Shown one piece after another: positions 6,670-16,240 of a DNA stretch of 64,000 nt. The notes beneath the pieces were generated by a model. That model was not told where the DNA came from and searched no databases. It saw only the letters and a list, made by a program, of their open reading frames with translations. The stretch covers positions 22,785 through 86,784 of the forward strand of contig WRCX01000002.1 in the NCBI GenBank assembly GCA_009783705.1. Reading direction: 5' to 3'. Within the stretch, counting starts at the first letter, position 1. Each line of letters begins with the position of its first letter. The DNA comes from Candidatus Bathycorpusculum hydrogenotrophicum (GTDB lineage Archaea; Thermoproteota; Bathyarchaeia; Bathyarchaeales; Bathycorpusculaceae). Both the position numbers and the translations under genes were made by a program.

Positions 6670-6685
6670 TAGTGCTTTGTAACAT

Positions 6686-7363
6686 CTAAAAGTTTATAGT
6701 TTGACCGGGTAGTTTTTTCAGTTTTATGCGTGCATCTTTGGTGGTGAATTGCCAGTCAACACCTTTCTGAGTTTGATTACGCTCAATATGCCAAGCGGTC
6801 AACTCAACATTGAGCGATTCAATATTTGAAATACGTCTTTTTCCAAGACATTGCACCCCAAGAACCGACAACTCTACCTCAGCAACATTTAACCAGCCGC
6901 CATGCTTAGGAGTAAAATGAATCTCTAAGCACTGTGCCAAACCAAACGCCCTCTCCGCAACAAACGCCCCATACAACGCAGACAACCCATGCGTATTCAA
7001 ATTATCCAAAACTAACACCACCCGCTCAGCATCAGGATATTGTTCCTCAAGCAGCCAACGCAGCTTATGCGCCCAATCTACTTTTGTTCGATACACCAAA
7101 GCCTCCACATGACGCCACCCAACCAAAGGCTCACAAAACACAAAAATGCTGCACACACCCATACGCACATACTCATTATCAACCCAAAGGACCAAACCCG
7201 AACGCGTTGACAACAGCTCACATACATCTAATAGAAGCTGATATAATTTCTCATCCATACAAACAACCGATTTCTTAGCATCATAGGGGCAAGCATAAAC
7301 AGCTAAAACATCCTCCAGGGCAGCGACAAAGGCACTATTTTGATGCGGAAGTATGCACCACAT
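6686..7363 (-). CDS. IS630-family transposase, DDE catalytic part
   Basis: [23 protein letters not shown]...VVCMDEK...LVLDNLNTH...[21 protein letters not shown]...[23 protein letters not shown]. Confidence 0.92.
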
Positions 7364-7368
7364 TTTCT

Positions 7369-7836
7369 TTAAATGAGGTTTAAATTGTGTTTTTTTAAAA
7401 GCCGCTTCACACTCATATGGGATAATGTGTTAACGTATCCCAGCTTGATGCTTTTATCGGCTAGGAGGCGCAGGGTCCATTTTGCGTAGCCGTCAGGGGG
7501 TTTGCTGCATGCTAGGGCGATGATGTGAGCTTGTGTTTCGTCTGTTATTTTTGGTGCTATGGGGGGTGTGGTTCTCTTTTTGCGCTGCAAAAAACGGGTT
7601 ACTGTTTGGGCAGCGAAAAAAGCGTTTTTTACGTTACTGATTGTTTGATTGCTTACGCCTATTCTTTTTGCGATTTTGGTTTGTTTTTCTTTTTTTCTCC
7701 CCTCAGACTCATCTAGGGCTAAAATTATTTTTGCACGATTAACCAGCCTCACACTGTGTTTGTCTTTGGCACTAAACCGCTCAAGCTCAGCTCTATCAGA
7801 CGAACTTAACACAACACCAACATACTTACCTTTCAT
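7369..7836 (-). CDS. IS630-family transposase, N-terminal HTH part
   Basis: RVGVSNQT-type HTH ([20 protein letters not shown]) and [31 protein letters not shown]; one base short of joining the DDE ORF. Confidence 0.9.
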
Positions 7837-7969
7837 AACATCACACTACCAATAGAGAACAACACAACAAACAAAACTATAAACTTTTAGATGTTACAAA
7901 GCACTAGATTTAAAAATAGGGTCTCAAGCAGGCGGTAGCTTAGTTGCTGTTTGAGGTTCTGATTGTGGG

Positions 7970-8881
7970 TTATTCTATGAACTGGGTTAGATATTGAGTA
8001 ATTAGCTCATAAGCTTCCAAGTCCTCAGGACCTTTTTTGTTACCGTTTTCGTCTGTTCCAATCAACTGTTCACCATCACTTTCAGAAACCGGTTCGTTGT
8101 ACTCTATACGAAACACGCATTGCACAACTGTGCCGTTGCGGGCTTCAAATGTTAAGAGGGGATACTTTACGCCGGGTAGAATCAGATCATATTTTCCTTC
8201 TGTTCGGGGTTCAACAAGAAAAGTTTTGGTTTCTGCCAGTGAGAGCAGGCTCAGTAGAAGGGAGCCTTGATAGGGTTGGAAGCTGATTTTGGGATTGTCG
8301 TAGGTTAGTTTATCTTTTGCTTCCTCGATTTTTGTGGTTAAGGCAGTGTTGTTCCACAGTTCTACTCTGCATCTTTGCGCCTCTTGGGTAGCTTGTTCGG
8401 TAAAGGATGTGGTCGCTATGATAAGGGCACGGTCGCATTTCTGGGTGCTTTGGGCTTGTTGGGCGGCCAAAATTATGACATCGCTAAGGGTATAGCTGGG
8501 AGGATATTTCCGTGCTAAAACCGCAATCTTTTCAGCGTTTTTGATGGTGACTAAATCAGCGCCGTGGTTAACTACACAGCTACTTTGTATTTCATAGCCC
8601 AATGTTTCAAAGAGCCACTGGATAAATAGTCTAAACTCTTTATCTGAGAGAACTCCGATCGAATAATTCGCGGTTTGCGGTTCGGGTTTGGAGTGTTTCT
8701 CCACAAGAGTTTTTATGCTGGGTTTTTGGGGGGTTAGATTAGGAGTTTTTTTTATTCGATTTGCTAGTATTTCGGCTTTATCCAGGGGGAGCTGTAGTTC
8801 ATCTGCTAGTAACTCGATTAGGTCATTGTTTTTTGGTTGTTCGGCGATTTTTTTTAAGGTGTTGTTTTTTTGGTGGCTCAT
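7970..8881 (-). CDS. Mrr-like restriction-endonuclease-fold protein with non-canonical active-site residues
   Basis: FRLFIQWLFETLGYEIQSSCVVNHGADLVTIKNAEKIAVLARKY...CDRALIIATTSFTEQATQEAQ resembles Mrr_cat; ATG at 8881 lies directly after the preceding stop (8883-8885), favouring this start over 9094. Confidence 0.7.
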   Translation of the reverse strand: MSHQKNNTLKKIAEQPKNNDLIELLADELQLPLDKAEILANRIKKTPNLTPQKPSIKTLVEKHSKPEPQTANYSIGVLSDKEFRLFIQWLFETLGYEIQSSCVVNHGADLVTIKNAEKIAVLARKYPPSYTLSDVIILAAQQAQSTQKCDRALIIATTSFTEQATQEAQRCRVELWNNTALTTKIEEAKDKLTYDNPKISFQPYQGSLLLSLLSLAETKTFLVEPRTEGKYDLILPGVKYPLLTFEARNGTVVQCVFRIEYNEPVSESDGEQLIGTDENGNKKGPEDLEAYELITQYLTQFIE

Positions 8882-8882
8882 C

Positions 8883-10232
8883 TTAGGGCTCCTTTTTTGC
8901 ATGTTGAGGGCAGAGTTTTTTTCTGAATTCGTCAGTGTGGGTGAGGTTGAGTTTGGAGAAGGGTTTGTTGCAGACATCGCAGATATCGTAGTGGTGGATG
9001 CATACACTTGTGTTGTCGTGAGTGCATTTGAATTCGAGGAGACGGCTGTGGCGTTTGCCGCAGACTGTGCAGATAAAGCCTTTGTCGCGTTCAAAGTATT
9101 CGTTTAGGGTTTCGTCGTGGGTTAGGGTTGCTTTTTTGGAGTATATTTTTGCTGTATCTATGGATTGTCGGGTGCAGTCTTTGCAGACATAGAAGCCGTC
9201 TTCGGTTGGGTAGCCTTCGGGGTGGGTTTTTTTGCACATAGGGCAGATGACTTCGGGGTTCTGGATGCCTATGATGAGGGTGGATTGGATGGTTGCTTTG
9301 TTGTTGAGGGTGATTTCGAATTTGATTTTTAAGGTGTTGATTATGAGAAGATTATGGAGTTTTACGGTTATGTTTGTTTGGCAGGATTCCTCTTCGCGCT
9401 GTAGCAACGCTTCATAGGTGGATTGCCATTTTTGGAAGTCGAAATCATGTTTTTTGGAGATAACTTGTTCGCGTCGTTCTCGTTTTAGTCGGCGCTCAAA
9501 ACTTTGTAATCTCATTTTTTTCTCTTTGACCAAGGGGAGGTCAAAGAGTGTGACTTTGTTTTTGAGAAAGGCTATTAGTTTTTGGTCTGCCGTTGCTTTT
9601 AGTTCGTCGTAGAGTTCGGGTTTTATTTTTGATTTCGAGTTCTCGATTTGTATTGTTTTGTTCTCCAGCACAGATGCTAAATTGAAGGTGTCATCGATGC
9701 AGTGGCATTCTTCGTTGAGTAGAATGGTTAGGGTTTCTTCGCTTTTTGTTCTGAGTTTGTTTTGAAAGTTTAGTGCATAGTAGAACTGGAAGAAACGTAA
9801 GGTTTCTTTTTTAGTAATTTTTATCGAGGTGATTTGGCCGTTGTTTATTTGGTGAAAACAAGGTTCGAGTTTGGTACAGACTTGGGTGTCTTGTATGGTT
9901 TGGGTTTTTTGGCAACTCAAACATGCATCGGTGTTGTTAAAGTGGGATTCTATTAGGGTTTCTATGGGGCCGTTGTTTGTGAGGTTGATTTGGCAAAGAG
10001 CTCCGTTGTCTATGGATTCTTTGAGGAGCTGTTGAAATAGGGGGCTTCCGGGGGCAAGCAGAGGGATTTTTTTTTCTTTTGCGGTGTTGGGTTGGTAGGT
10101 AAATTCTTGGGTGTTGCCGTCGGGATAGGCGACTGTTAGGGTGTCGTTTGTTTGGTGGGTAATTATGCCGCCTTTGATTTGGACGTAGGTTTCAAAGAAT
10201 TTGCAGAGATCTGCTTCGGCTTGGGTGCTCAA
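8883..10232 (-). CDS. Uncharacterised multi-zinc-ribbon protein, partner of SNF2 helicase
   Basis: CxxC clusters DACLSCQKT, VICPMCKKTH...FYVCKDC, FICTVCGKRH...ICDVCNKPF...LCPQH; 4-bp overlap with the helicase ORF. Confidence 0.75.
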   Translation of the reverse strand: MSTQAEADLCKFFETYVQIKGGIITHQTNDTLTVAYPDGNTQEFTYQPNTAKEKKIPLLAPGSPLFQQLLKESIDNGALCQINLTNNGPIETLIESHFNNTDACLSCQKTQTIQDTQVCTKLEPCFHQINNGQITSIKITKKETLRFFQFYYALNFQNKLRTKSEETLTILLNEECHCIDDTFNLASVLENKTIQIENSKSKIKPELYDELKATADQKLIAFLKNKVTLFDLPLVKEKKMRLQSFERRLKRERREQVISKKHDFDFQKWQSTYEALLQREEESCQTNITVKLHNLLIINTLKIKFEITLNNKATIQSTLIIGIQNPEVICPMCKKTHPEGYPTEDGFYVCKDCTRQSIDTAKIYSKKATLTHDETLNEYFERDKGFICTVCGKRHSRLLEFKCTHDNTSVCIHHYDICDVCNKPFSKLNLTHTDEFRKKLCPQHAKKEP

Positions 10233-12196
10233 TCCAAGACTCCCTGTGTGAATTGTTCGGATAATTCTTGGTTTTCCTTTACTATGTTTAGGTTCTCGGC
10301 TAGTTTTTCTAGTTCTTTTTGGATGTCGAGTCGGGAGTTGCTACGCAGGAGAATGTCGCCTATGGTTTTTTGTATGTCTTGTGCACCCTCTTTGAGGTCA
10401 GCTAGCACGGTCTCCATTTTGCCCACAGTCATGGTGAACAGATCGATTTTTTGATAGAGCACATGCAAAACGTAGTCGTCGATAGTGTCTTTGACGGCTA
10501 AGTTGAAAATTGTTACATCGCGGTCTTGTTTGTAGCGATGTATTCTGCCGATGCGTTGTTCGATTTTCATGGGGTTCCAGTGCAAGTCATAGTTAAACAG
10601 CACACAGCAATTCTGTAGGTTGAGACCTTCTGCTGCGGCGTCGGTGGCGATGAGGTATTTGGTTTGGCCGCTCTTAAAGCTGGCAATCACTTGATCACGT
10701 TCAGCTTGGTTCATATCGCCCACATAGATAGCAGCTGGTCCAAATTGGTCGTTTAGCATTTCGTTGATTTTGCGGGCGGTTGTTTTGCGTAGACAGAAAA
10801 TAACTGCTTGTTCGTTTGGAACTTCTCTTAGAACATTTTTTAGCAACTCCATTTTTGCGCTTTTTACTTTTTGGGCCATCTCGATTAGTTTGTTGGTCGC
10901 ATCAGTTTCCATGGGGAAGCGTTGCTGGCGTTTTTTGAGTGATTCTATGGATGCGTAGGGTGAACTTGAGAAGGATTGTTGGAGAGTGATGGCTTGGAAG
11001 ACTAAAATGGCGTTGCTCTGGGAAGCTGTCATTTTTCTTGAGGGGTTTTCGGCAATTAGGGTTTCGATGGTTTTGAAGTGGTTGTCGCTGACTTTGCGCA
11101 GGTATTGGGTTGCTTCTTCGATGAATTCGCGTTCGTAATCGTTGGGTTCAAGGGTTCGGGATTCTACGCATCGTTTTGTGAAGGGGATGCCTGTTTGTTC
11201 TCGGAGGGTGCGACACATAACGTCTTGGAGAGTGTGTTTGAGATAGTTTGCTTCTTGGGGTCGAACTACTCGGCTTCTAACATCTTCTGCGAATCGGGAG
11301 ATAAATGCGCGTTCGCTGTCTAGGAGGCCGGGTTGGATCAGATCGACAATGCTGTAGAGATCGGTTAGTCGGTTGCATAGGGGGGTTGCGGTTAGCAGGA
11401 GCAGGTGGTTTTTGCGCAGATCGGAGAGTGCGGTTCGGCTTTTGCTGTGGGTGTTGCGAAATGCGTGGGCTTCATCGACCATGACTAGGTCCCAGGTTCG
11501 GTTTGTGAGTGCGGGGTAGTTTTTTAGGAGCATGTTGTGGGAGCAGATTAGGCGGGTGTTGGTTGTTAGTTTGGCGCGTTTTCCTGCGCCGTTGGCGATG
11601 GTGAAGGTTTCGCCGAATTTTTCAGCCATCTCGCTTTTCCATTGCGAGAGGAGGCTTTTGGGTGCAATAATTAGCACTGAGTTGATTTCTTCTCTTAGCA
11701 CCAACTCTTTCATAATTAGGCCGGCTTCGATGGTTTTGCCCAAACCCACCTCGTCGGCTAATATGGCATTTGAGTTCATTTCGTTTATAACTTGCAGTGC
11801 GGTGTGCAGCTGAAAGTTGTAGGGGATTAGTTTTGTGCGTATGGCATCCACTGAGATGAGATGATCGATTTTGTCGGTTTGTTTGAGTTGGGAGGCTTGG
11901 ATGCTTAGCTGGAAGCTGTTTAGGGATGTATAATTGGTTTTTTGAATTTGTTTTTTTATGTTAAGAGGGTCGGTATAGGTGATGGTGTATTTGTGTTTGG
12001 TTTTTTTGTTATTTTCGGGGTCGTCGAGTTCGCATACAATTGTTGTTTGTTCAGGGTTGGGTTCTTTATTTTTTTTTGGTTTGGGTTTGGGGTTTGGGTA
12101 TAGGTCAACAATTGCAGGTGCGGAGTCGAGTGTGATTTCGGGTTGGGGGGGTTGGCTGGTTTGTTTTTTTGGGCTTTGAGACAAGAGTATCGACAT
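10229..12196 (-). CDS. SNF2/RapA-like DEAH superfamily 2 helicase
   Basis: NAILADEVGLGKTIEAGLIMKEL, VMVDEAHAFRN, LLLTATPLCNRLTDLYSI, TDAAAEGLNLQNC, RIGRIHRYKQ. Confidence 0.93.
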   Translation of the reverse strand: MSILLSQSPKKQTSQPPQPEITLDSAPAIVDLYPNPKPKPKKNKEPNPEQTTIVCELDDPENNKKTKHKYTITYTDPLNIKKQIQKTNYTSLNSFQLSIQASQLKQTDKIDHLISVDAIRTKLIPYNFQLHTALQVINEMNSNAILADEVGLGKTIEAGLIMKELVLREEINSVLIIAPKSLLSQWKSEMAEKFGETFTIANGAGKRAKLTTNTRLICSHNMLLKNYPALTNRTWDLVMVDEAHAFRNTHSKSRTALSDLRKNHLLLLTATPLCNRLTDLYSIVDLIQPGLLDSERAFISRFAEDVRSRVVRPQEANYLKHTLQDVMCRTLREQTGIPFTKRCVESRTLEPNDYEREFIEEATQYLRKVSDNHFKTIETLIAENPSRKMTASQSNAILVFQAITLQQSFSSSPYASIESLKKRQQRFPMETDATNKLIEMAQKVKSAKMELLKNVLREVPNEQAVIFCLRKTTARKINEMLNDQFGPAAIYVGDMNQAERDQVIASFKSGQTKYLIATDAAAEGLNLQNCCVLFNYDLHWNPMKIEQRIGRIHRYKQDRDVTIFNLAVKDTIDDYVLHVLYQKIDLFTMTVGKMETVLADLKEGAQDIQKTIGDILLRSNSRLDIQKELEKLAENLNIVKENQELSEQFTQGVLD

Positions 12197-12609
12197 TTAC
12201 TGACTGTTTGGATATAAAAACCTGAAATGCAACTCTTGGGTGGTTGTGTGTTCTTCGGATAGTGCATATGCTGATTTCATATACAAAGGGTCATTAATTT
12301 GGAAATTTTTTTCATTTGAGTTTGAGGGTTTGGGGGTTATATTAACGGGTTTGGTGGGTATGGCGGGTTATTGTTGAGGCAACACCCATTTTTGAGGATT
12401 GTTTTGGGTTGGGTTGTTTTTGACATATTTGTGTTAAAAGTGTACAGGTAAAAAAAAGGCCAAAAATCAGCCAATTAAGCGGTTGTTTTTAGGGTTGTTT
12501 TGGCTATAGCTCAAGAATTTAAGCGATTTCGTTAGTTAAGGCAGCCTCGTTAGCGTTTAGTAATTTTTAAATATAAATTGAAGCTTTCTGTCCTTTTGAG
12601 GTTATTAAC

Positions 12610-15686: not shown

Positions 15687-16240
15687 ATGATCGATAAAAA
15701 GAGAATCGAAAACGCAGTAAAAGAAATCTTGTTTGCGATCGGCGAGGATCCTAACCGAGAAGGGCTGGTTGAAACACCTGCAAGAGTAGCAGATATGTAT
15801 GCAGAGATATTTGCTGGACTGCACACTAACCCAAAAGGTTGCACCAAGATTTTCCATGAACACGAAAACAGCGGCCTTGTGGTGGTAAAAGATATTGCAT
15901 TTCAATCGGTATGTGAACACCACCTAATACCGTTCATAGGCAAAGCATGTATAGCCTACAGCCCAATGGCGGCCGCATACTGGGCCTCAGTAAAGCAGCC
16001 CGCATACTTGACATATTATCAGCAAGACCCCAAGTGCAAGAGAGACTTACTGCACAGGTGGCTCAGACCATAATGGAAATCGTTGAACCCAAAGGCGTGT
16101 ATGTCTACATTGAAGCCGAACACTTGTGCATGACCATGCGAGGGGTAAAAAAGCCAGGAGCAAAAACCGCCACCACATGCATAAAAGGCGAAATCAGCGA
16201 GAGCGATATCGCCACCGTTAGAGGCGGTAATTATAGCTAA
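15687..16240 (+). CDS. folE: GTP cyclohydrolase I, split by an apparent single-base deletion near 15965
   Basis: [28 protein letters not shown] and [18 protein letters not shown] in one frame; [33 protein letters not shown]...EHLCMTMRG in the next. Confidence 0.85.

Follow-up and report, generated by a model that had tools for sequence, protein, structure and literature searches.

A split SNF2 helicase operon of Candidatus Bathycorpusculum hydrogenotrophicum with a zinc-finger C-terminal half and a degenerate Mrr-fold protein

Among BREX-related (BREX, bacteriophage exclusion) systems centred on DUF499, the Type-1 helicase-nuclease has been described as an Snf2 core followed by an inactive restriction endonuclease (REase) domain, a C-terminal alpha+beta domain (CTD) and a terminal PD-(D/E)XK nuclease (PMC12839542). 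Here, we analyzed a 64,000-nucleotide (nt) stretch of Candidatus Bathycorpusculum hydrogenotrophicum (contig WRCX01000002.1; hereafter the window), in which three minus-strand genes follow this N-to-C domain order as gene order 1-2-3. Genes 1 and 2 together provide the Snf2-inactive REase-CTD architecture on two chains. The operon differs from the DUF499-associated proteins in consisting of three genes, in its additional zinc fingers and in a terminal nuclease that is of the Mrr type and dead; an active PD-(D/E)XK site is typical, not universal, of the described proteins. BrxHII of BREX types 3 and 5 is another close relative, whose two halves, carried on one chain in BREX, are homologous to genes 1 and 2. 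The motor plus Spacer/CTD architecture of RapA, which is bacterial and a single chain, is likewise matched by genes 1 and 2 on two chains, and ZorD of the Zorya system shows the same pairing of motor and Mrr. Very probably, the three genes specify a single machine whose parts are divided among three proteins.

Gene 1 encodes the motor. It matches the Pfam families SNF2-rel_dom (E 4e-35) and Helicase_C (E 5e-27), with a helicase core at approximately residues 113-600. The complete SNF2 motifs noticed in a preliminary description, made from the sequence alone, were confirmed and are conserved among relatives. The PADLOC models of DrmD and BrxH were matched at E 1e-72 to 1e-61, with only part of these longer models covered. 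The ratio of nonsynonymous to synonymous substitution rates (dN/dS) is 0.04-0.12, similar to neighbouring metabolic genes. A deep SNF2 tree, affected by long branches, left the root of the Bathycorpusculum motor among split versus one-chain helicases unplaced.

Gene 2 is not an unrelated partner: it represents the C-terminal half of a helicase of the RapA/BrxHII type, separated from its motor and supplemented with zinc fingers. This assignment is based on a structural match to RapA, on profile-profile alignments with negative controls, and on the same domain plan in the published description (PMC12839542). The AlphaFold2 (AF2) model of gene 2 (mean predicted local distance difference test score 70) starts with an alpha/beta domain, which gives way to long antiparallel strands and two long helices, followed by the zinc sites. 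When it was searched against the PDB with Foldseek, only four matches had E <0.001, all of them Escherichia coli RapA (4.6e-6 to 2.1e-5, 315-320 columns). Alignments by hhalign, whose E-values apply to single comparisons, linked the Bathycorpusculum gene 2 family to tandem-zinc partner proteins of short SNF2 helicases from Halocatena, Halorhabdus and the archaeal genome G414 (326 columns, E 1.6e-7), and to the partner in genome G311 (E ~7e-5). When pooled, the partner family matched the C-terminal half of long helicases from haloarchaea, among them those of BREX-5, at E 1.4e-12, versus E 0.27 for the helicase N-terminal half and E 0.011 for the reversed C-terminal half as controls. Bathycorpusculum gene 2 alone aligned with the long-helicase C-terminal half at E 2.6e-4 over 83 columns. 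Domain-model searches with gene 2 gave no confident family, no sequence similarity to RapA was detectable, and PDB sequence searches returned RING-type zinc matches and noise only, which were discarded. Gene 2 contains 17 conserved Cys/His residues, 16 of them invariant, and has a dN/dS of ~0.13-0.15. Thus, the zinc protein noted in the preliminary description is indeed rich in conserved zinc ligands, but it is not free-standing or unrelated to its neighbour. The motor and its accessory half are both intact and under selection.

Split SNF2 loci of this kind form a wider family. Short SNF2 genes with a following partner were found in G198, G311 and G414 and on haloarchaeal plasmids. Three complete SNF2-partner-Mrr sets in the same order are present in G414 (Nitrososphaeria-type), Halocatena and Halorhabdus; compared with the present operon, their SNF2 proteins are only ~30-34% identical, and their partners bear tandem zinc fingers. 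A fourth set occurs in Haloferax lucentense, where the reading of the partner is disrupted or misannotated. Several haloarchaeal SNF2-partner pairs adjoin DUF499/DUF1156 genes. The G414-type locus was absent from 200 other genomes sampled from its order, a sporadic distribution as is typical for defence. As a separate observation, two haloarchaeal partners (L178:5815-9102, + strand; L176:5935-7965, + strand) consist of very long tandem CxxC/CxxH arrays with no Pfam match at E 0.001. On cyanobacterial plasmids (L180, L182 and L187), a short SNF2 gene is directly followed by a gene for a hypothetical protein of 333-346 amino acids (aa) without evident zinc sites, possibly a further type of split helicase. 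These partners (Nostoc, Oscillatoria and Chondrocystis) were not counted, since they showed no direct homology to gene 2 and only weak links to the G311 and tandem-zinc partners.

Gene 3 has the Mrr fold. It matches Mrr_cat at E 2.2e-12, and its Foldseek matches include AspBHI, AF1548 and MspJI. Among gene 3 members, Mrr_cat was matched by 23 of 23 and the inactive-REase model NA-iREase1 by 21 of 23, although NA-iREase1 also weakly matches the G414 Mrr protein, whose site is intact. The preliminary description had called gene 3 an Mrr-type endonuclease fold; the fold holds, whereas the D-(Q/E)-K active site of Mrr restriction endonucleases is complete in none of the 27 members. The Asp is kept in 22, Gln/Glu in seven and the Lys in one, this last position being R, V, L, I or Q in the other 26. 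In related loci, the Mrr site is intact in G414 and Halocatena and degenerate in Halorhabdus and Haloferax lucentense. On the evidence of these residues, DNA cleavage by gene 3 is highly improbable, and type IV restriction by gene 3 was rejected because of the active-site loss. Its dN/dS of 0.18-0.31, the highest of the three genes and comparable to that of metabolic genes nearby, demonstrates purifying selection. The dead site together with this selection indicates that gene 3 is maintained for a role other than cutting. The protein also has an N-terminal helical segment, and its most conserved part is the C-terminal domain, to which only fragments outside the module were matched in the class-wide profile search.

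That the operon is a conventional restriction effector degrading DNA via its Mrr-like subunit is consequently very improbable: the fold, the frequently retained Asp and the intact D-Q-K sites of the G414 and Halocatena loci speak for it, but the triad is nowhere complete, the Lys is almost always substituted and no self-protecting methylase was found in the window.

We then compared the operon with complete defence systems. DrmD of the defence island system associated with restriction-modification (DISARM) is the best PADLOC/NCBIfam model for gene 1, at 245 bits versus a cut-off of 950. DrmA, DrmB (DUF1998), DrmC and a methylase were not found among the 45 window proteins, as the preliminary description had correctly stated for the methylase and other DISARM components, and the single DUF1998/MZB match in the genome lies on a different contig. 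For BREX, neither PglZ nor a BrxC-type ATPase nor a PglX-type methylase was found among the window proteins; for Zorya, ZorA, ZorB and ZorC were not found in the window. Membership in DISARM, BREX and Zorya was rejected because required partners were not found in the window and the DrmD score is far below its cut-off. A DUF499 ATPase and a DUF1156 methylase were not found in this genome (G000); both are rare in the genus, with DUF499 in 2 of 33 genomes and DUF1156 in 3 of 33. A single ZorD model covers both parts, with gene 1 matching at profile positions 387-888 and the Mrr proteins at 941-1067, and serves as a Rosetta stone for the two.

To define the distribution of the operon, 257 Bathyarchaeia genomes were searched for each of the three genes. 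Gene 2 was detected in 27 of them and full-length gene 3 in the identical 27; a close orthologue of gene 1 is present in the same genomes, with one additional distant match in G198. The three genes, whose co-occurrence had been an open point of the preliminary description, are therefore strictly co-conserved. Their order is unchanged in all 27 genomes, as is a 4-nt YTGA overlap of genes 1 and 2 (TTGA, or CTGA in four, for which a CTG start is inferred), and the module is well above chance expectation. No further gene is common to all operon neighbourhoods compared across carriers. Of the carriers, 26 belong to one genus, Bathycorpusculum (32 genomes), whose metagenome-assembled genomes (MAGs) have been obtained from digesters and sediments as well as from peat soils and termite gut (PMC10684969). 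The remaining carrier, G091, is a sister-genus MAG with two different RpoB genes (contigs C4 and C24); as one of these groups with Bathycorpusculum, the bin is probably mixed and the presence of the operon in the sister genus is doubtful.

Within Bathycorpusculum, the operon is vertically inherited. Trees of genes 1, 2 and 3 share 12, 11 and 7 of 20 splits, respectively, with the RpoB tree, compared with a mean of 0.14 and a maximum of 2 after shuffling. Searches of plasmids, phages and IMG/VR viral contigs yielded no copy of the operon; on this result and the RpoB-concordant trees, the possibility that the module is mobile or plasmid-borne in Bathycorpusculum was rejected. Absences are scattered over the genus tree and require about five changes; most genomes are MAGs, so that an absence may reflect incompleteness, and genome collections are not exhaustive. 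In G044, a remnant (L166:1146-1420, - strand) fuses gene 1 residues 97-151 to gene 3 residues 244-303, and the operon was therefore lost there through internal deletion. Two other irregular copies were observed. In G049, gene 2 is broken in two (L058:8610-9972, + strand; aa 1-150 and 155-445), with genes 1 and 3 open; in G053, a second gene 3 copy fragment containing a stop (G053:C19:3698-3835; profile positions 190-235) lies apart from the intact operon.

The features of the locus are listed in Table 1. The tight coupling of the three genes given in the preliminary description was confirmed to the nucleotide: besides the overlap of genes 1 and 2, gene 2 ends with a stop codon at 8885-8883, and gene 3 opens with an ATG whose first base is 8881. 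A TTTTATA element upstream of gene 1 is retained in most relatives.

Table 1. Coordinates of the operon, its predicted domains and sites, and the adjacent insertion element (window positions; residues numbered within each protein)
Feature	Position	Strand	Remarks
Gene 1, SNF2/RapA-type ATPase motor	12196-10229	-	655 aa
Gene 2, helicase C-terminal half plus zinc fingers	10232-8883	-	449 aa; TTG start
Gene 3, Mrr-fold protein	8881-7970	-	303 aa; ATG start
TTGA overlap of the gene 1 stop with the gene 2 start	10229-10232	-	4 nt; start TTG, stop TGA
TATA-box-like TTTTTATAT	12212-12220	-	16-24 nt ahead of the gene 1 ATG
Gene 2 residues 1-100, alpha/beta, taken as degenerate REase domain of RapA/BrxHII	9933-10232	-	AF2 secondary structure; hhalign to BrxHII C-terminal half; description in PMC12839542
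Zinc site 1: C104, C107, C119, C125, H127	9852-9923	-	(near-)invariant in 26 sequences
Gene 2 residues 134-320, beta sheet plus long helices 205-258 and 266-283	9273-9833	-	AF2; fits description of RapA/BrxHII C-terminal domain
Zinc site 2: C330, C333, C350, C353	9174-9245	-	invariant
Zinc sites 3/4: C388, C391, C403, C411, H414, C418, C421, C441, H444	8901-9071	-	invariant; low-confidence AF2 region
Gene 3 degenerate catalytic site: D109 retained; L122 and R124 in place of Q/E and K	8510-8557	-	
Gene 3 C-terminal domain, kyD...gv..PLLTF...Ri..nepv.E motif	7970-8284	-	alignments; class-wide profile search
IS630-family element	6672-7904		downstream of operon, outside module; inverted repeats, DDE_3 match

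The IS630 element reported downstream of the operon was verified by its terminal inverted repeats near 6672-6702 and 7874-7904 and by TA on both flanks. Its transposase is spread over two open reading frames (7836-7369 and 7363-6686) separated by 5 nt. The element is missing from the same site in the nearest relative (G063), in which a UDP-glucose-dehydrogenase-like gene follows ~110 bp on. The flanks of the operon vary across the genus: five close relatives have the pyrD/folate side flank in common and four others share two downstream genes. The module is thus near-core in one genus, yet it has no known role and no single syntenic place. The GTP cyclohydrolase I (folE-like) gene at 15687-16237 (+ strand) is frameshifted, with codons 1 to ~91 in one frame and the remainder in another; it is intact in four relatives (184-228 aa), and the frameshift reflects either a real pseudogene or an assembly error. 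The proteins neighbouring the operon (76 scanned) belong chiefly to transport and metabolic families with few defence-like ones, which does not bear out the enrichment in defence islands that a defence role had suggested. PADLOC matches to mad3 and mad8 in the window include ABC-transporter ATPases according to Pfam and were not scored as defence.

The motor and accessory halves are under selection, whereas the nuclease is dead and the usual partner genes are absent; the operon descends vertically, and its loss is tolerated. We therefore favour, at about even confidence as to function, a nucleoprotein remodeller that is driven by ATP, does not cleave and arose by domestication of a defence helicase-nuclease. 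Its ancestor would either have shed the ATPase and methylase that normally accompany it or have lacked them from the start; its cutting activity would have been lost and the machine retained in Bathycorpusculum. In such a machine, gene 1 would supply the ATP-driven SNF2 motor, the zinc fingers of gene 2 may have been added for DNA or protein contact, and gene 3 would be a catalytically dead Mrr-fold subunit replacing the terminal nuclease of BREX-related helicase-nucleases. We infer that the three proteins form a complex that binds duplex DNA via its zinc and Mrr-fold parts, and whose ATP-driven translocation would remove proteins from DNA or rearrange them there, for instance a stalled RNA polymerase or another nucleoprotein, with no DNA degradation.

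Several observations weigh against this interpretation. The TM-score between gene 2 and RapA is low (~0.25) and not compelling alone; such a value is to be expected when a model has several flexibly linked domains, and uncertain domain placement is probably responsible. Apart from RapA, the nearest characterised relatives of the motor are defence helicases. The operon is missing from 6 of the 32 genus genomes, some of them incomplete; this dispensability is equally compatible with defence and with an accessory function. AbiE and Hachiman-like genes occur near a few loci, as single-protein matches each. Finally, a nuclease could possibly be recruited in trans despite the loss of the operon's own.

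The main rival is an active but non-cleaving defence in which the motor would track invading DNA and either block its replication or transcription or recruit a host nuclease, while the dead Mrr domain would serve as the sensor. We consider this possible, though less likely than the remodeller. Its attractions are the ancestry among BREX, BREX-related, DISARM and Zorya-type helicases, the haloarchaeal plasmid relatives beside DUF499/DUF1156 genes, the rapid evolution of gene 3 relative to genes 1 and 2, and repeated loss within the genus. However, inheritance is vertical across most of the genus, the neighbourhood is mostly housekeeping, no mobile copies were found in the plasmid, phage and viral contig searches, and the motor's dN/dS resembles that of metabolic genes. 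Of the defence role originally proposed, what stands is the defence-related ancestry; the idea of a defence island fails for this operon, given its mostly housekeeping neighbours and vertical descent in one genus.

A special case of the remodeller reading is a housekeeping, RNA-polymerase-recycling transcription factor, an archaeal counterpart of RapA in which gene 3 would dock on the polymerase. The RapA domain plan and conservation across most of the genus agree with it. In the Foldseek search with gene 3, RPB5 structures formed the second set of matches (E 0.005-0.05), a weak lead only. The RPB5 jaw has a nuclease-like fold, and the match may reflect fold alone: the superposition is poor (root-mean-square deviation ~14), and the gene 3 profile found no RPB5 chain among PDB sequences. 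As the operon is also lineage-restricted and dispensable, we regard this special case as rather unlikely. Equally tentative is a fuller scenario, in which one archaeal genus captured a defence helicase-nuclease that lost its nuclease and now may act as a housekeeping three-subunit remodeller clearing RNA polymerase and other roadblocks, a functional analogue of RapA made from immune parts. All these readings overlap, and our confidences in them do not add up to one.

The Snf2/inactive REase/CTD/nuclease effector of BREX-related immunity thus occurs on its own, as an operon for three subunits that lacks both the ATPase and the methylase, and archaeal "hypothetical" partners of short SNF2 proteins become assignable to the helicase C-terminal half. 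A dead nuclease that purifying selection maintains in most genomes of a genus offers a natural experiment in how an immune motor may become domesticated. A non-catalytic role of the Mrr domain, in binding or sensing, is predicted from it and may bear on active systems too.

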